IMG/VR virus record: IMGVR_UViG_3300042301_000115
Location: 1 to 25,134 of that record
Direction: 5' to 3' (one strand)
DNA: 25,134 bases
From: a virus
The position numbers and the translations under genes were made by a program. Below are positions 7,953 through 19,446 of this stretch, piece after piece (within the stretch, counting starts at the first letter, position 1; each line of letters starts with the position of its first letter). A model generated the notes under the pieces. It did no database searches. It was not told the origin of the DNA and saw only the letters and a list, made by a program, of their open reading frames with translations.

Positions 7953-8120
7953 TTATTTTTTTAATTGTTGTTGCGCATAATTATAAGCAGCTCTTAACAT
8001 CGTCAAGTGTACTCGTAACTTTTCTGGGTTATTAAAGATTATTTGTATTCGTTTTCCGGTACGCTGAAATATGTACATCTCTACGTACACGCACATTGCC
8101 TTAGTGTAATCCTCAGACAT
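7953..8120 (-). CDS. 55-aa protein between terminase and tail genes
   Basis: This gene fills the gap after the large terminase. Its ATG (8120-8118) overlaps the terminase stop as TAATG and its TAA (7955-7953) lies 5 nt before the next start. The product, beginning MSEDYTKAMCVYVEMYIFQR, has a Tyr/Met-rich first half and ends in a Gln/Lys-rich helix (AYNYAQQQLKK). I do not recognise a family. Tight coupling on both sides supports it as real. A role in packaging or tail assembly would be only positional inference. Confidence 0.6.
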   Translation of the reverse strand: MSEDYTKAMCVYVEMYIFQRTGKRIQIIFNNPEKLRVHLTMLRAAYNYAQQQLKK

Positions 8121-9280
8121 TAACGTATGTTGTAATTACCGGCGTTTTTCCTTAATCCTAAGGTTTCCATTTCGTGATATCTTAACGCATCAATAGCGTG
8201 GTTATATCCATCAATAGGGCGGTTTGTTTTGGTTCCGTCTTTTGTTCTATCCCAGCAGTAAGCTCTAAGCTCCTTAATTAGATTTGTGCTTTGCTTAGTT
8301 ACAAAATACTCTTGTTGCTGCATTACATCAATCCCGTACTTAATTGAATCATTGCCTTTCGTTGCTCCTTTAATCGTCTTTCCGTATCTACGGATCTCAT
8401 CAATTGACTTCGGTTCGGAACTATCCGCAAATATAGTAACGCCACTCGGTAGCCTTTTGGCTATATCTGAGTTTAACATTCCGGTTTGGTAAACAAGTTC
8501 GTTTACTATTCGCTTACCATTCCAGTTATATATTTCAATTGCTGCTGTTGGATCATTCGAATAACCAAAGTCAAGCCCTATTCCAATCAATCTTGCTTCA
8601 TCTGGAATCTTGTCAATCTCTTTCCAGTTTTCAAATATTACGCCCTCTAAAGATCCGACTTCTCCTAAGCCATAAACTTTCCACCAGTTAGCCCAATAAT
8701 TGCTTGTAGCTGCTTTCTCCCGATTCTTTTCAATTTGTTGAACTATTCCATTATCTAAAGCCTCGTTGTCCTTGTACGTCAAGATTATGAAATCAGCATC
8801 TGGTTCGTCTTTTAGTTCCTTATGTACCCAAAACTCATTCGCCGGGTTAAAGTCCAAATATACTTCTCTGTTTGTACGGATTGCAAGCTCATTGTAAGAT
8901 TCAAAAGTTACATTATTGCACTCGTTGATATAAAGAATATCCCTCCTTGCTCCTCTGAGCTTACTGGAATCATCTGCTGAGAAAAATTCAATATAACTTC
9001 CGTTCTTGAATCTGTATATTCTATCTGATTTGTTAAACTGATCATCCGTGTAACGATTAGTCCAACGCATAATCTTAATGAAGTCTTTTAATGCACCACG
9101 CTTCAAATGCGGTATGCTTTCAGATACAACGCTGATCTCTAAGTTAGGAATCTTTACTGCTCGGTCAATTAATATCGGTAGGATTCCAAAGGTTTTTCCG
9201 GCTGAGGTTCCTCCTTGAATAATCTTAATCCGTTTTTTAAGATCAAGAATCTTGTTTATTGAGGTTGTCCGTTTGAACAT
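8120..9280 (-). CDS. terL: Terminase large subunit (ATPase and nuclease)
   Basis: A 386-aa DNA packaging motor protein that cuts concatemeric DNA and pumps it into proheads using ATP. The N-terminal ATPase shows Walker A GGTSAGKT (23-30) and Walker B DILYINE (114-120), with the acidic Glu120. A motif like the coupling segment lies near YLDFNPAN (141-148). The C-terminal RNase H-like nuclease shows acidic positions in GLDFGYSNDPTA (Asp237), IFADSSEP (Asp286) and DGYNHAIDALRY (Asp364). Length is slightly short for TerL but complete. The start overlaps the small terminase gene by 38 nt. The next genes are tail genes, not portal. Confidence 0.92.
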   Translation of the reverse strand: MFKRTTSINKILDLKKRIKIIQGGTSAGKTFGILPILIDRAVKIPNLEISVVSESIPHLKRGALKDFIKIMRWTNRYTDDQFNKSDRIYRFKNGSYIEFFSADDSSKLRGARRDILYINECNNVTFESYNELAIRTNREVYLDFNPANEFWVHKELKDEPDADFIILTYKDNEALDNGIVQQIEKNREKAATSNYWANWWKVYGLGEVGSLEGVIFENWKEIDKIPDEARLIGIGLDFGYSNDPTAAIEIYNWNGKRIVNELVYQTGMLNSDIAKRLPSGVTIFADSSEPKSIDEIRRYGKTIKGATKGNDSIKYGIDVMQQQEYFVTKQSTNLIKELRAYCWDRTKDGTKTNRPIDGYNHAIDALRYHEMETLGLRKNAGNYNIR

Positions 9281-9584
9281 CTGGGAATAGTGGTTGCTCT
9301 AATATTGTTTGTTCTACTTGCTGAAGTGGTGCTCCATATCCGGAATCCATCAATGCTTTGTAAGCTGATACATCGCCCTCACGAGCTTTCTTAATTAATG
9401 CTAAGGTCATTAAATCCTCTTGGCTCATCGTTTCGCTTTCTCCGGTTAACGGGTTCTTTAGCGATTGATTAACTTCTAACCATTTGCGAGCTATCGTGCT
9501 TCTGTTCTTGCTTCCTTTTGGCCTACCGTTATTTTTAGGCTGATATTCGGAAGTAAATTTCTTTAAATTATCTTCTCTTGCCAT
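9243..9584 (-). CDS. terS: Terminase small subunit candidate
   Basis: A 113-aa protein with a basic N-terminal segment of the DUF5681 type (YQPKNNGRPKGSKNRSTIAR, about residues 14-33). A helical segment and SGYGAPLQQVEQT, typical of small proteins placed directly before TerL in Bacteroidota phages, follow. TerS usually recognises the packaging site and regulates TerL. The recognition part here would be the basic N-terminal region, but no DNA-binding fold is proven from sequence. It overlaps the TerL start and follows the dioxygenase gene by 18 nt. Confidence 0.75.
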   Translation of the reverse strand: MAREDNLKKFTSEYQPKNNGRPKGSKNRSTIARKWLEVNQSLKNPLTGESETMSQEDLMTLALIKKAREGDVSAYKALMDSGYGAPLQQVEQTILEQPLFPDVQTDNLNKQDS

Positions 9585-9602: not shown

Positions 9603-10388
9603 TTACTTTAATCCTTTAAAAGCCTTAAGAGGATAAAATACCAAACTATTTCTGTAACCTCCATCGTGTGTTGGAATAATAGGAGTAACTCCATGAACGT
9701 TTCTCCAAGCTGGGTAAACTAAAATAGAATTATCAACTTGACCTATTGTAGCATTGTAATCTGGTATATGAAGATCTCCTCCTTTTGAGTTTAATCTTTT
9801 GCATATTATAACATTAACTGCTCCTTGCATATTTAATCCGTCTTTATGGAATGCTGCTGAAATATTATAGTTTGAGATAGAGCTGGTAAATAGCTTTCCA
9901 ATTTTCCATTTATCCAAAGTATCCTCAAATAATTCAAGCTGTTTATAATATTGATCTGGTATTATTTCTTTTATAAGATCTTCGCTTTCTTTAGCGAGCA
10001 TGATCATTGCTTTTATAAATGTTTGGCAAGATTTTACTCCGTGATTTGAATGTTTATTAGGATAGTTACGCCCTAAATGAGGTTTAGGCGCAGTGCTTCC
10101 GATTATTGTAGACATTTGCTTAACGGTTTGGACTCCTCTGCTTTTCATTGTTGCCGGCTCTCCATTGGTTCTTAACATCTCTTGCTTTGGAACTCTTTTG
10201 CTTAAAAACTCAGCATTGGCTAAATTTGCCAACTTACACATTTTTTCTGGCATCTTGGACATATAAAACCCAATAGGCTCTCCATCTGCGTAAAATATGC
10301 AATCTTCAGTTATATTTGGCTCTATATATTCACAAAAATCTCCAATTTTTCTTTCGTGTTTTATTTCAATGAGATCTACCCTTTTCAT
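9603..10388 (-). CDS. TET/JBP-like 2-oxoglutarate/Fe(II) DNA dioxygenase candidate
   Basis: A 261-aa protein whose C-terminal half has the double-stranded beta-helix dioxygenase signature. AAFHKDG gives the Fe(II)-binding HxD (His181, Asp183). It is followed by GGDLHIPDYNATIG and NVHGVTP with the distal His232. YRNSLVFYPL follows with Arg246 as candidate 2-oxoglutarate ligand. The order and the GGDL/HG.TP/R.SLVFY phrases resemble phage TET/JBP enzymes, which oxidise 5-methylcytosine or thymine in DNA. The N-terminal half is unassigned. Its ATG overlaps the glycosyltransferase stop as ATGA, so the two are coupled. Substrate (5mC or T) cannot be told. An unrelated prolyl-hydroxylase-like role is the main alternative. 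Confidence 0.75.
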   Translation of the reverse strand: MKRVDLIEIKHERKIGDFCEYIEPNITEDCIFYADGEPIGFYMSKMPEKMCKLANLANAEFLSKRVPKQEMLRTNGEPATMKSRGVQTVKQMSTIIGSTAPKPHLGRNYPNKHSNHGVKSCQTFIKAMIMLAKESEDLIKEIIPDQYYKQLELFEDTLDKWKIGKLFTSSISNYNISAAFHKDGLNMQGAVNVIICKRLNSKGGDLHIPDYNATIGQVDNSILVYPAWRNVHGVTPIIPTHDGGYRNSLVFYPLKAFKGLK

Positions 10389-11116
10389 TTTACAGATTTT
10401 TTGTAATGTAATGCTAAAGATTTTATGTCAGTTTTCATATCTATACGATTACCTTTTCTTTTTAATGTTACAAATGGATTCCATTCAATGCACATTTTCA
10501 TTGCTGAATCTTCATCCTTTTTCAATTTATATTCATTTTGCAATCCACCAAAGTTTGATCCAACATCTGGGCATGCAAACCAATAATGATTAAAACGAAG
10601 TATTCCATTTCCATTTTTAATTGTTTGCAACGCAAAATCCCTATCTTCTTTCAGATTGAATTCTGGCCGGTAATTCCATTTTATCTTAGGCACATTCATT
10701 AATATACAAACTTCAGCAAACTTTTTGTTAATTGAATATTTTGTTTTTTCGTGCCATGCGTGTTGAGTATAGTTAATTCCAATAAGTTCAAAAGGAAGTT
10801 TGTTTGCCTTTTCTAATATATCAAACCAGATTGAAGCATCCTTTTTAACTGTTTTACCATTGTAGATACCAAATGAAGTAACGTCATCGTCGCAAATTAA
10901 AACCCATTTATAATTGTTGTGCCTTGCAAATTCCAACATAAAGTTGCGCACGTATCCTATGCCTTTATTGTTTTCTTTAATGCTGATTTTGTTAGGTACA
11001 TTATAATTATCAATTTCTTGCGGCTCAATAAAATGATATACCTCAATACCTACTTCTTCAAATAGCTTATACGTTTTTGTACTGGGCCTTCCTTTTGTTG
11101 GTATTAAACAAATCAT
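10385..11116 (-). CDS. Glycosyltransferase, TET-associated type candidate
   Basis: A 243-aa protein starting MICLIPTKGRPSTKTYKLFE, as in GT-A-like nucleotide-sugar transferases. A GIGYVRNFML motif (52-61) precedes LICDDDVTSF (73-82), whose Asp triplet is a candidate metal-binding DXD. A later KEDRDFALQT segment resembles a catalytic acidic region. I moved the start from an upstream codon at 11185 to ATG 11116, because this ATG overlaps the ParB-like gene stop (ATGA). Its place directly before a TET/JBP-like dioxygenase fits the TET-associated glycosyltransferases that glycosylate hydroxymethyl bases. Sugar donor and DNA target are unknown. Confidence 0.7.
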   Translation of the reverse strand: MICLIPTKGRPSTKTYKLFEEVGIEVYHFIEPQEIDNYNVPNKISIKENNKGIGYVRNFMLEFARHNNYKWVLICDDDVTSFGIYNGKTVKKDASIWFDILEKANKLPFELIGINYTQHAWHEKTKYSINKKFAEVCILMNVPKIKWNYRPEFNLKEDRDFALQTIKNGNGILRFNHYWFACPDVGSNFGGLQNEYKLKKDEDSAMKMCIEWNPFVTLKRKGNRIDMKTDIKSLALHYKKSVK

Positions 11117-11691
11117 AACTTTTCCTTTTCGTCTTTTAGCTTCTCCATAATAAAGCCACCAATATACAGTTCTTTTTGTCGCCAAAACTTGATAAGCTCT
11201 GCTGCTTCTTCGTAATGCTCTGCTTCAAACTCAATCTGTATGGCTTTCTTTACTCCGCCAGCCATATCGCTTAACTGGCCGTCAAGATCCTCATCATCCA
11301 ATATAGAATAATCAACTTCTTCCGGCATCATAGGTACGTTTAATCCCCACTCATCCAGCTTTTCAGTATCCCATTCATTAGCTAACATATCCCAATCCCA
11401 TTCTCCGAAGCCTACATTGTCCTTAACTATAAACTCCTGCTTCTGTTCTTCTGTTAAGTTTTCTGCTTTGACTATGAATACGTCTTTTAATCCAGCTTCT
11501 TTGCTGGCTTTTAAGCGCATATTACCACCTAAGACAATGTTATTCTCATCCACTACAATTGGGCGAAGCTCAAGCATCTGTGGAAAGTCTTGGATTGACT
11601 TAACTAACTTGCGGAATTTATCATCTTTGATTAATCTTGGGTTGCTTGGGTTGTTCTTAACCTCGCTGATCTTTACCTTTTCAACTTTCAT
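11113..11691 (-). CDS. ParB-like nuclease-domain protein
   Basis: A 192-aa protein with a ParB N-terminal domain. KISEVKNNPSNPR (about 7-19) is followed by KFRKLVKSIQ, LRPIVVDENNIVLGGNMR (about 42-59, with the GG.MR motif) and a LTEEQKQEFIVKDN segment. Helical tail sequences rich in Asp/Glu follow. No partition helix-turn-helix is visible, so it is not a classical plasmid ParB. Phage proteins of this type often accompany DNA methyltransferases or other base-modifying enzymes. Here the next two genes are a glycosyltransferase and a dioxygenase, coupled by overlaps. The role, such as targeting or nucleotide binding, is inference. Confidence 0.75.
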   Translation of the reverse strand: MKVEKVKISEVKNNPSNPRLIKDDKFRKLVKSIQDFPQMLELRPIVVDENNIVLGGNMRLKASKEAGLKDVFIVKAENLTEEQKQEFIVKDNVGFGEWDWDMLANEWDTEKLDEWGLNVPMMPEEVDYSILDDEDLDGQLSDMAGGVKKAIQIEFEAEHYEEAAELIKFWRQKELYIGGFIMEKLKDEKEKL

Positions 11692-12569
11692 AAAGGAAAT
11701 TTATGTGAATCAATGTTTTTATATACTTTTCTTTCTCCGTTTTTTTCTATCCTTTCAGATTCAAAAACTAATATTCGCCCACCGGTAGGCTTAACTGGAG
11801 CTCCTCTTTCAACGTGCCATCCTTTTGAGCCATCTTCATACTCCTCTTTGTAGGTACCGGTGAGCATCATATGGATTTGTTTTTGTTCGTGTCTATATCC
11901 AATTTTAGGGCTATAATTAACGGTATCTCTGGCATCATTACGAGCAGCGTTTTCGTGAATGTGGCCCATACTAAACACATCAAAATCTTCATACATTTCC
12001 AAAGCACGAGTTAAATTCAAAGCTCCCTTTGTAACTACGCCTCCGCCTCCAGAGCCGTGAAAGTATTTTATTTTGAATGAACTTTCAGAGCCAAAACCCA
12101 ATTCTTGCCTTACTATAATCCATCCGCCATAACCTCCCGTTTGTATCTGAGTGCCGCATTTGTAATTAAGTAAGTCAACAAACCTTTGTAAGATGTCCGT
12201 TTCTTGCCATTTGATAATAGCAGTTTCGTGGTTTCCGTAACCGATCACAGTAAGAATATCTGCATAAGGCGTAAAGAATTGTACCGCAGTTTCTACAATT
12301 GAATCCAGATACTTTGAGTTGTTATGCTCTGGTCTGATATCTGATTTGTTTCCTCTGCGATCTCCGCGACCCTGCATGAGGCAGAAGAAGTCGCCATTAA
12401 CCATAACCGGAATATCATTCGTCTTGCAGTAATCAAGATCTCTTTTTAATAGATCCCAATCGCATTTAGGATTGTCCCAATGTATATCGGAAAGCATTGC
12501 AATCTTTACACGTTTGCCCTTGAGCATTATCTCGTGTATATTTTTTGCGTGTTTTTTTACGTGAATCAT
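11688..12569 (-). CDS. Calcineurin-like metallophosphoesterase
   Basis: A 293-aa protein carrying the dinuclear-metal motif series in order: SDIH (Asp28, His30), NGDFF (Asp60), GNHE (Asn113, His114), HGSGGGG (His171) and MGHIH (His203, His205). This pattern is diagnostic of metallophosphoesterases, which hydrolyse phosphomono- or diesters, including nucleic acid ends and cyclic nucleotides. The insertion between the second and third motifs is basic and Asp-rich (RGDRRGNKSD). It overlaps the ParB-like gene by 4 nt. Its substrate is unknown. A DNA processing role is plausible from the neighbours, but a housekeeping phosphodiesterase is equally possible. Confidence 0.85.
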   Translation of the reverse strand: MIHVKKHAKNIHEIMLKGKRVKIAMLSDIHWDNPKCDWDLLKRDLDYCKTNDIPVMVNGDFFCLMQGRGDRRGNKSDIRPEHNNSKYLDSIVETAVQFFTPYADILTVIGYGNHETAIIKWQETDILQRFVDLLNYKCGTQIQTGGYGGWIIVRQELGFGSESSFKIKYFHGSGGGGVVTKGALNLTRALEMYEDFDVFSMGHIHENAARNDARDTVNYSPKIGYRHEQKQIHMMLTGTYKEEYEDGSKGWHVERGAPVKPTGGRILVFESERIEKNGERKVYKNIDSHKFPL

Positions 12570-12922
12570 ACTTCGTATGAGCTATAAACTCGTTGTAAGT
12601 CCTTAATAATCTGGATCCAGCAGCTTGAGCAAGTGCTTGGCTCTTTTCTTTTATTGAATACTCTGGCGTAAATAGTCAACAGTTGACGTTGCTCCGTAGG
12701 ACTTACGCTTGTCTTAGTCATTAATCCTATTTCAGTAAGGTAATTGTATTCTTCTTCTGATAGGCATTGAACGTACGGGAATAACTGATTGAGTTTTTCC
12801 TTTCTTTCATTGCATCCGCAATCTTCTCCAGCTACAAATTCAACTAACTTCTTGATGCCAGTTGCTTCTGTAATCTGTTCGATTGTATCTCCTAATCCTT
12901 TTGCTTTTCTTGGTCTTGCCAT
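12566..12922 (-). CDS. Cysteine-containing conserved phage protein
   Basis: A 118-aa protein beginning MARPRKAKGLGDTIEQITEA, with a basic start, a CGC pair near residue 35-37 in a GEDCGCNERKEKLNQLFPY segment, and a second CSSCW motif near residue 98-102. The two cysteine pairs could make a zinc site. I recall similar sequences in Bacteroidota phages near terminase or ParB genes, always uncharacterised. It overlaps both neighbours (GP88-like before, phosphoesterase after) by one to four bases, so it is in the same operon. Function is unknown. Confidence 0.6.
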   Translation of the reverse strand: MARPRKAKGLGDTIEQITEATGIKKLVEFVAGEDCGCNERKEKLNQLFPYVQCLSEEEYNYLTEIGLMTKTSVSPTEQRQLLTIYARVFNKRKEPSTCSSCWIQIIKDLQRVYSSYEV

Positions 12923-13512
12923 TATTTCTTATAATTATCAATTAAATAAAAATTTACATTTGGTTGCCTTGCTATATCGTCATTGTAATCAATAAGACCT
13001 CCATTAGTTTCTAATATATCTTTTACAACTTTGACGTGTTTTAAGTTGTACTGATCAATAAGTTCATCGTTTCTGCCTCCATAAGATGCAGTTAAAACTA
13101 AGTTATTAGGTATTTTATCAATTCTATTTACCCAATATTTAAGCGACTTAGTATAAGCCCAAAATTCTACGTTTGAATTTTCTTTAGCTACTTCAAGCCA
13201 CATATCAAAATAATCTTGATTAAAGAAATCTCCAGATGCGTGGATTCTAACTGCATTGCATCCTTTAGGAATTTCTGGCTTATTTCCGTTAATTACGTGC
13301 TCATAATTGTTCCATCTGTGGTTTCTTACTGCTGGAAATCTTTCCGGAGCTGCTGCATAACATCTGTAAGCATTTGATTTATTTTCAAACTTACCAGTTT
13401 CTCTGTTTACTTTTACTAAACATTCCAAAGCAAAAGGGCAAGTATGTCCGGTAGGTAAATTCCATTCATATACAGTTCCGGTATAATATTTTGTATTCTT
13501 AACAAACTTCAC
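12922..13512 (-). CDS. Gene product 88 (GP88)-like protein
   Basis: A 196-aa protein with GHTCPFALECL near the N-terminus, YRCYAAAPERFPAVRNHRW in the middle, and RIHASGDFFNQDYFDMWLEV then FWAYTKSL (about 90-120). This succession matches the GP88 family first named in mycobacteriophages. The family is a conserved Cys-containing phage protein of unknown function. The invariant-looking Cys residues could bind a metal or iron-sulfur cluster, but this is inference. It overlaps the preceding 61-aa coiled-coil gene and the next gene by 1-4 nt. Confidence 0.75.
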   Translation of the reverse strand: MKFVKNTKYYTGTVYEWNLPTGHTCPFALECLVKVNRETGKFENKSNAYRCYAAAPERFPAVRNHRWNNYEHVINGNKPEIPKGCNAVRIHASGDFFNQDYFDMWLEVAKENSNVEFWAYTKSLKYWVNRIDKIPNNLVLTASYGGRNDELIDQYNLKHVKVVKDILETNGGLIDYNDDIARQPNVNFYLIDNYKK

Positions 13513-14230: not shown

Positions 14231-14352
14231 TCTATTTCAAATATAATGTTGAAAAGCATTAATCCGATGCCTCCGGTGGAAATCAGTAAGCCAAAACCCC
14301 AATTGTCGTCAATGTGAATCTTGGCTTTGACGTTCTTAAATATTCGTTTCAT
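14221..14352 (-). CDS. 43-aa single-pass membrane protein
   Basis: A short gene with ATG at 14352-14350 and TAA at 14223-14221. It overlaps the end of the zinc-motif gene by 17 nt and the TTG start of the sigma-like gene by 10 nt. The first 18 residues are basic (MKRIFKNVKAKIHIDDNW). They are followed by a hydrophobic Gly/Leu/Ile/Phe helix (residues 19-39), giving a likely one-helix inner-membrane protein. A match to the TAnnTTTG promoter box lies inside its codons (14238-14245), which may be coincidental. Function is unknown. Confidence 0.55.
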   Translation of the reverse strand: MKRIFKNVKAKIHIDDNWGFGLLISTGGIGLMLFNIIFEIDWK

Positions 14353-14749
14353 AAGTAGAAAGTATTTGTTTGTACTGCTTTATTCTTTCGATACCTCTGT
14401 TAATGGTATTCATTCTATTGTGCCATCTTTCAAAAAGCTCAGATTGTAAGCCCATTTGTCGTAAAGCATTAATTGAAAACAAAACCATTTCTTTTCGTTT
14501 TTGCATACCGGCAAGTAAATGATCAGCATCAGCTATAAAAGCCAATTCGTTATTGTATTCAAGTCCGTAAGTGTCCTCAAGTTTAAATAACATATTATCC
14601 AGATCAACTATCTTTCCTTTTCCGTTACAATCATCGCATTGCAGCTCAATATGATTCTGAGCATACGGTTCATAGTTTCCGGTTGTTTCTTCTGTTATGT
14701 AACCCTTACCATCGCAGCAGTTACATTCTAAATAATCAATTGCAATCAT
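14336..14749 (-). CDS. Protein with two DnaJ-type CxxCxGxG zinc motifs
   Basis: A 137-aa protein with CNCCDGKG (near residues 9-16) and CDDCNGKG (38-45), which together can form one zinc site as in DnaJ-type zinc domains. The rest is helical and charged (LFERWHNRMNTINRGIERIK). No J-domain is present. It is the first gene after a promoter whose -7 box ends 26 nt upstream of its ATG. It overlaps a 43-aa membrane protein gene. Role unknown; a nucleic acid or protein binding zinc protein is the most likely. Confidence 0.6.
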   Translation of the reverse strand: MIAIDYLECNCCDGKGYITEETTGNYEPYAQNHIELQCDDCNGKGKIVDLDNMLFKLEDTYGLEYNNELAFIADADHLLAGMQKRKEMVLFSINALRQMGLQSELFERWHNRMNTINRGIERIKQYKQILSTYETNI

Positions 14750-18612: not shown

Positions 18613-19446
18613 TTATAATCCACAATATCCCGAATCGCAATCTGTAAAATCTTCATCAAACAAATCTAATTGCAATTTATGGTTTTTAATCTTTTCATAA
18701 GTAACTCCTTTTTTAAATGTGCTTCCGTGTTTTTGTTCCATACTTATAAACCAATCAAATTGCTTTTGATCTCTTTGGCTCATATACTTTAAAAATATCT
18801 CAGAGCGATGAAAGCAACCAACGCAATTATTTTTGTAGGAAAATCTAACGAATTTATCTTTCCAGTAGTTCTCAATGGTATCTTTAAATATTCCGTCTTC
18901 AATTAGTGGAAATCTTGCAGATCTGTATGGCAGTTCTTTCCATTTATTACGCCCGTTCTTTTCTCCAACCTTAAACTTAAAACTTTCAATGCCGTCAACT
19001 GCTCTTTCAATCATTGTTTTAGCTCTGATCATTTCATTAGCTCTAAATCCTATTCTCATTTCTACGGGTAATTCCGTATTATCATAGCACCATTGAGCAA
19101 TAGGTTTAACTTTCATATCTACTGTGCAATATCTTGTCATTAAATTTGGTAAGTATCCAGAACGTTTTTCAATAATATCTTCAAATGTTTTATCTGAAAG
19201 CCAAATAATTTCTTGGCCTATATACTGCTCTAAATCAAGCATTGTGTAAATGATAGTATCCTCTTCAAGTGTACCTATAAATTCGTGTCCTATTCTATCG
19301 CTTACAATTTGACGAATTTTAGCATCTGGAAAAAGAACGTTTTTGTCATTTGTACGAACTAAAGAAAAGATATTATAATCAGCGGGATAATTTGCAGCTA
19401 TGTAGCTTGATGTTTTACCACCGCTTAGCGAGTTTACTGTTTTCAT
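18613..19446 (-). CDS. PAPS-reductase-like PP-loop protein
   Basis: A 277-aa protein with the PP-loop SGGKTS (8-13) of the adenine nucleotide alpha-hydrolase fold and a RYCTVDMKVKP motif characteristic of the PAPS reductase family. A CVGCFHRSEIF segment with two Cys and a terminal DCDSGYCGL follow. The classical enzyme reduces phosphoadenylylsulfate. Phage relatives of this family have unclear roles, and the Cys pairs could bind a metal or cluster. A sulfur-transfer or nucleotide-modifying activity is possible but not shown. The ATG overlaps the stop of the helicase gene by one base. Confidence 0.75.
   Translation of the reverse strand: MKTVNSLSGGKTSSYIAANYPADYNIFSLVRTNDKNVLFPDAKIRQIVSDRIGHEFIGTLEEDTIIYTMLDLEQYIGQEIIWLSDKTFEDIIEKRSGYLPNLMTRYCTVDMKVKPIAQWCYDNTELPVEMRIGFRANEMIRAKTMIERAVDGIESFKFKVGEKNGRNKWKELPYRSARFPLIEDGIFKDTIENYWKDKFVRFSYKNNCVGCFHRSEIFLKYMSQRDQKQFDWFISMEQKHGSTFKKGVTYEKIKNHKLQLDLFDEDFTDCDSGYCGL

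Follow-up and report, generated by a model that had tools for sequence, protein, structure and literature searches.

Base J of kinetoplastids is formed by the thymidine hydroxylases JBP1/JBP2 and the glucosyltransferase JGT (PMC10057400). In another known pathway, a DNA kinase first phosphorylates the 5hmdU of DNA, after which an amine is added (PMC6449724), and the gene set of Rhodococcus phage Tonitrus was described as a thymidine hypermodification system (PMC11955845). TET-associated glycosyltransferases (TAGT) of T6-type (T-even) phages transfer a second sugar onto glucosylated hydroxymethylcytosine; many TAGTs occur in phages lacking alpha- or beta-glucosyltransferase and have no function assigned (PMC13216743). 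Phage sets combining TET/JBP with glycosyltransferase genes, as well as ParB–TET–kinase sets, are already known. In the actinobacteriophages Tonitrus, Wooper, LittleMunchkin and Prince, the order of genes is ParB, TET/JBP, ADDT (aGPT-PPlase2), 5-hmU DNA kinase and terminase. The pathways of Burke 2021 and Pyle 2024 reportedly combine a phage C5-methyltransferase, TET and a glycosyltransferase acting on 5hmC. In Prochlorococcus phages MED4-117 and MED4-184, ParB is followed by the genes of an FkbM methyltransferase and TET, a small gene and terminase. Arthrobacter phage Altadena carries the set ParB–TET–TAGT–PIG-L deacetylase, and Nonlabens phage P12024L carries TET–TAGT–N6/N4 methyltransferase.

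The window considered here, i.e., the whole stretch of 25,134 bases that was analysed (IMG/VR virus record IMGVR_UViG_3300042301_000115), is a linear fragment without end repeats and contains genes of a ParB-like protein, a TAGT and a TET/JBP dioxygenase. Gene order and position are the same as in MED4-117 and MED4-184, the TET of which is 49% identical to that of the window, but their slot between ParB and TET is occupied by the FkbM methyltransferase (PF05050, 4e-11) and that of the window by a glycosyltransferase. In Altadena and P12024L, TET/JBP adjoins TAGT as in the window, but the gene order is different in both; Altadena has an additional sugar deacetylase, and P12024L has an additional DNA methyltransferase and a TET of a distant branch, next to which no ParB was found. 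The pathways of Burke 2021 and Pyle 2024 share with the window a TET and a linked glycosyltransferase on phage DNA, but their C5-methyltransferase is found neither in the window nor in most relatives that have the same gene frame. As in the actinobacteriophage set, genes of the ParB-like protein and TET/JBP lie near terminase, and the TETs cluster in the best tree (PMC11955845), but the decorator of the window is a TAGT located between ParB and TET, and the scanned genes of the window gave no match to 5-hmU DNA kinase or ADDT, which were found only in relatives. The base J pathway is similar in its proposed logic, namely, thymine hydroxylation in DNA followed by glycosylation (PMC10057400), and its enzyme classes are present in the window; in contrast to it, the window has no visible J-binding domain and has a ParB-like partner instead.

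Organization of the cassette

Table 1. Features of the cassette and adjacent genes in the window.
Feature	Coordinates	Strand	Characteristics
Terminase large subunit (TerL)	8120..9280	-	PF04466/PF17288, ~2e-13; constant downstream neighbour
DUF5681 terminase-small-subunit-like gene	9243..9584	-	PF18932, 1.1e-7; downstream neighbour of the cassette, directly before TerL
TET/JBP 2-oxoglutarate/Fe(II) dioxygenase, predicted base (thymine) hydroxylase, 261 aa	9603..10388	-	HKD 181-183, H232, R246; Pfam Tet_JBP, 9.3e-9
ATGA stop/start overlap, glycosyltransferase to TET	10385..10388	-	4 bases; sequence
TAGT (TET-associated glycosyltransferase), 243 aa	10385..11116	-	DDD 76-78; Pfam TAGT, 3e-15; fills the exchangeable slot
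ATGA stop/start overlap, ParB to glycosyltransferase	11113..11116	-	4 bases; sequence
ParB-like protein, 192 aa	11113..11691	-	ParB_N (NPSNPR, GGNMR) and a tail of ~100 aa; constant first gene of the frame; Pfam, 1e-6
ATGA overlap, metallophosphatase/ParB	11688-11691	-	upstream junction; sequence

The three genes had been presented in the initial annotation as a coupled base-hypermodification cassette, and the sequence bears out their minus-strand arrangement, the two ATGA overlaps inside the cassette, and the motifs listed for the dioxygenase, glycosyltransferase and ParB-like protein. The start of the glycosyltransferase gene was placed at the ATG at 11116, replacing the TTG at 11185 of the mechanical ORF list. 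The closest named relatives of the TerL are found in Flavobacterium phages.

Upstream of ParB and coupled to it lies a metallophosphatase-like gene (11688-12569, minus strand); the relatives surveyed first yielded no homologue of it, and thus it is probably not a part of the cassette. The genes for a 118-aa protein (12566-12922, minus strand; phrog_32048) and a GP88-family protein (12922-13512, minus strand) are also located upstream of ParB in several relatives. A small protein encoded at 14336-14749 (minus strand) has a DnaJ-type zinc-finger match below the cut-off (1.9e-5), and a PAPS-reductase-like protein (phrog_424, 4.6e-19) is encoded in the replication region (18613-19446, minus strand).

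Families and predicted structures of the proteins

All three proteins scored above the curated Pfam cut-offs for Tet_JBP, TAGT and ParB_N, the profile check that had been proposed for them. The margin is narrow for TET (PF12851; 35.2 bits at a cut-off of 34.9). The metal triad and the 2-oxoglutarate-binding arginine (H181, D183, H232 and R246) are invariant in the alignment of 55 TET sequences; in the subclade of the window, HKDGLNM replaces HRDTGNI, and several residues around the active site that are conserved elsewhere differ from those of most relatives. Searches of PDB with sequences and profiles were uneven: the single sequence gave no meaningful match, the profile of 55 rows was without a match at E 0.01, and that of 14 rows matched TET2 at 8e-5. 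The question was settled by structure comparison. For the AlphaFold2 model built from the alignment of relatives (pLDDT 91.6), Foldseek against PDB placed TET2 first (E 7e-13, TM 0.68 by query length); the 26 best matches are human TET2, fungal CcTet, Naegleria TET1 (NgTET1) and CMD1, followed by FTO and AlkB-type enzymes, so that the double-stranded beta-helix of the model is nearest to known TET enzymes. Alignment with prolyl-hydroxylase-like proteins, named in the initial annotation as an observation that would speak against the cassette, was not found; a prolyl hydroxylase was rejected on the basis of the fold, and none is named among the top 50 Foldseek matches. The family and the modelled fold suggest that the enzyme would oxidise the 5-methyl group of a pyrimidine in DNA.

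TET/JBP genes of phrog_6059 are called ‘queuine tRNA-ribosyltransferase’ in NC_020847.1 (17129-17914) and in many Mycobacterium phages (gene 2). The same name is given to TET in MED4-117 and MED4-184, in the annotations of which ParB is a ‘DNA methylase’. Both names, for phage TET/JBP and for cyanophage ParB, look wrong.

The glycosyltransferase matches PF20691 (‘TET-Associated Glycosyltransferase’) with 57.1 bits at a cut-off of 27.5. Two aspartates of the DDD motif, D77 and D78, as well as the downstream D158, are invariant among 34 aligned glycosyltransferases. The AlphaFold2 model, also built from the alignment of relatives (pLDDT 92.5), is most similar in PDB to metal-dependent UDP-sugar glycosyltransferases, e.g., B4GALNT1, at a modest TM-score of 0.4-0.5. 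The profile score, GT-A-type fold and acidic metal motif place the protein in the TAGT family, and sugar transfer onto a hydroxymethylated DNA base is its predicted activity. NCBIfam contained no model matching the TET or glycosyltransferase of the window.

The ParB-like protein scored 29.1 bits with ParB_N (cut-off 26.3), and its best PHROG is phrog_498 (3.7e-27), comprising the ParB part of ParB–DNA-methyltransferase proteins. A role as a partition ParB in chromosome or plasmid segregation was rejected, since the score with TIGR00180 (25.1 bits) is far under the cut-off of 58.45. This score, the match to phrog_498 and the constancy of ParB among the relatives point indirectly to a putative role in recruiting or loading modifying enzymes on phage DNA.

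Fixed gene frame and exchange of the slot gene

Scans of IMG/VR with TET revealed at least 598 relatives in the first scan, to which further scans were added. When loci that shared the final 200 residues of TET without any difference had been removed, 198 TETs were left, 182 of them with ParB inside the fetched DNA. Since the ADDT query found close copies only, slot diversity was sampled via TET queries. In the genome collection, matches were found only in four contigs, all from metagenome-assembled genomes, and hence no cultured prophage host was found.

ParB is present in all 101 relative loci with at least 3 kb of upstream sequence. A recognised TerL is located within 2.5 kb of TET in 102 of the 125 relatives with at least 2.5 kb downstream; in most of the exceptions inspected (earlier set) a large open reading frame, possibly a divergent terminase, is found in its place. 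The slot between ParB and TET is occupied by TAGT in 83 and by FkbM methyltransferase in 82 of the 182 non-identical loci. ADDT and/or P-loop kinase genes are present in seven loci, other genes in four (an unassigned 301-aa protein in three and a different unassigned protein in one), and the slot is empty in six. ParB and the slot gene overlap by 4 bases in 124 of 162 non-identical relatives, and the slot gene and TET overlap by 4 bases in 85 relatives.

The TET tree (163 rows) requires at least 29 changes of slot state, compared to a mean of 63 after shuffling, and well-supported branches force no fewer than 11 changes for FkbM and no fewer than 11 for glycosyltransferase. In one relative (L003), TET is 86% identical to that of the window, and the slot glycosyltransferase just 21%. 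Accordingly, the frame ParB–[slot]–TET is fixed, as a rule with terminase genes after it, and the slot gene is exchanged. The glycosyltransferase of the window is one of several interchangeable occupants, ParB and terminase being constant, which the initial annotation of the single locus had not seen. As far as the literature shows, such a ParB–slot–TET–terminase frame across Bacteroidota-type phages and cyanophages, with frequent exchange of the decorator, is new.

Several unusual slots were also observed. In L079 (947-2247), the glycosyltransferase gene is followed by a sulfotransferase gene (PF03567, 4e-16), and the mark is possibly a sulfated sugar on DNA. The slot glycosyltransferase of L044 (2984-3696) is broken into two overlapping frames by a frameshift or sequencing error. 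The 301-aa protein of L025 (2358-3263), L032 and L063 has no significant match in Pfam or PHROG; a GT-B glycosyltransferase would be our guess. The slot of L289 (5075-6004) encodes a protein of 309 aa.

Probable base substrate and alternative explanations

ADDT genes in the slots of relatives match PF18724 (‘Amino acid:DNA transferase’; 2.6e-12, 1.1e-10 and 1.3e-9). Slots with ADDT or P-loop kinase adjoin TETs ~70% identical to that of the window (L046, L062, L080 and L222), and three of these modules also carry amidotransferase and acetyltransferase genes; the slot kinases of Bacteroidota type match kinase profiles below the Pfam cut-offs. In the actinobacteriophages LittleMunchkin, Wooper and Prince, the order is ParB–TET–ADDT–kinase–terminase, and Kharcho has the kinase alone; the neighbours of ParB and TET in actinophages match ADDT (1.3e-27) and P-loop nucleotide kinase (5e-58). 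The TET of the window groups with actinophage TETs (support 100/99), apart from those of P12024L, HTVC112P, Cr30, DLP6 and S-CBWM1, in the best tree, the root of which was not inferred and the long branches of which caution against over-reading. A gene of the thymidylate-synthase family (nucleotide hydroxymethylase) was found in none of 39 records; hydroxymethylation at the nucleotide level was rejected on this ground, and it is probably TET that forms the hydroxymethyl group, within DNA. The ADDT/kinase modules in the slot, which are components of thymidine hypermodification acting on 5-hydroxymethyluracil, the actinophage sets with TETs grouping with that of the window, the scarcity of C5-methyltransferase and the lack of a thymidylate-synthase homologue make thymine the likelier substrate of TET, by about three to one over cytosine as judged from this context. 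Thymine is disfavoured by the altered loop following HxD in the TET subclade of the window, the sub-cut-off matches of the Bacteroidota-type kinases and the ten records that do match C5-methyltransferase. For the TET clade of the window, the assignment to thymine is new as far as the literature shows.

It is possible, although rather unlikely, that the cassette acts on cytosine, with TET oxidising 5-methylcytosine that a methyltransferase of the host, or an unseen one of the phage, has produced, and with the glycosyltransferase modifying 5hmC. Phage TET–glycosyltransferase pathways on 5hmC reportedly exist (Burke 2021, Pyle 2024). The structural neighbours of known activity (TET2, NgTET1, CcTet and CMD1), which are the closest solved structures, act on 5-methylcytosine, which counts against thymine; the matches included no thymine-specific JBP catalytic-domain structure for comparison. 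In T-even phages, TAGT members add glucose to modified hydroxymethylcytosine (PMC13216743). Of 95 TET-bearing records, however, just 10 matched the C5-cytosine methyltransferase profile; it was missing from the other 85 and from all 14 named phage genomes, two of which belong to cyanophages sharing the frame. The initial annotation had seen no cytosine methyltransferase in the window, and likewise no C5-cytosine or N4/N6 methyltransferase was found across the 25.1-kb fragment, outside of which such a gene may lie. Cytosine is further opposed by the thymidine-pathway modules which fill the same slot beside TETs ~70% identical to that of the window.

Two other explanations concern the linkage of the genes and the nature of the dioxygenase. 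The slot enzyme might decorate cell-surface or virion glycans, and TET alone might act on DNA; in favour of this, glycans are common substrates of FkbM enzymes and GT-A glycosyltransferases, and ParB and TET occur with an empty slot in six loci. Such separate pathways are very improbable, since the slot gene is always located between ParB and TET, mostly with the conserved 4-base overlap, the glycosyltransferase matches specifically the TET-associated family, and ADDT, a DNA-base enzyme, occupies the same slot. The functional diversity of 2OG oxygenases and the Tet_JBP score barely above the cut-off would agree with a prolyl-hydroxylase-like or RNA-directed dioxygenase and a cassette unrelated to base modification; the TET enzymes filling all 26 best Foldseek places, with FTO/AlkB only next, and the recurrence of DNA-modification partners in synteny make this the least credible of the explanations considered.

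Proposed mechanism and its significance

The most probable reading, to which we assign a probability of about 0.65, is that ParB–TAGT–TET is a cassette of post-replicative DNA hypermodification with thymine as the likeliest substrate and with a decorator exchanged in relatives. The coupling of oxidation to glycosylation proposed in the initial annotation is supported by protein families, fold, invariant sites and synteny; the substrate, which it had left open, is narrowed here in favour of thymine. The ParB-like protein would bind phage DNA and help to bring or load the modifying enzymes. TET/JBP would then hydroxylate a pyrimidine of replicated DNA at its methyl group, most likely converting thymine to 5-hydroxymethyluracil. 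Onto the hydroxyl thus formed, TAGT would transfer a sugar taken from a nucleotide-sugar of the host, and the product would be an O-glycosyl-hydroxymethyluracil resembling base J. In relatives, FkbM methyltransferase, ADDT/kinase modules or glycosyltransferase with sulfotransferase take the place of TAGT alone, while ParB, TET and terminase stay, which suggests that the frame may serve as a platform on which the last modification varies. The phage would presumably escape restriction and other defences that recognise DNA, as assumed from other modified phages.

A broader proposal, which we regard as speculative and doubtful in its entirety, is that the frame serves tailed phages generally as a platform for thymine modification, in which ParB loads the hydroxylase, the swapped decorator changes the mark, and linkage to terminase reflects a packaging mark; the mark would be base-J-like glycosyl-hydroxymethyluracil in the window and 5-methoxymethyluracil in relatives with FkbM.

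The results argue that the label ‘queuine tRNA-ribosyltransferase’ is wrong on many phage TET/JBP genes. The frame provides testable genes for new DNA-modifying activities, namely, thymine-directed glycosyl, methyl, aminoacyl and possibly sulfated-sugar marks. If the proposed reading is true, viruses of bacteria would possess base-J-type chemistry, and a single conserved frame of genes would illustrate the way in which phages exchange the decorations of their DNA against the defences of the host.
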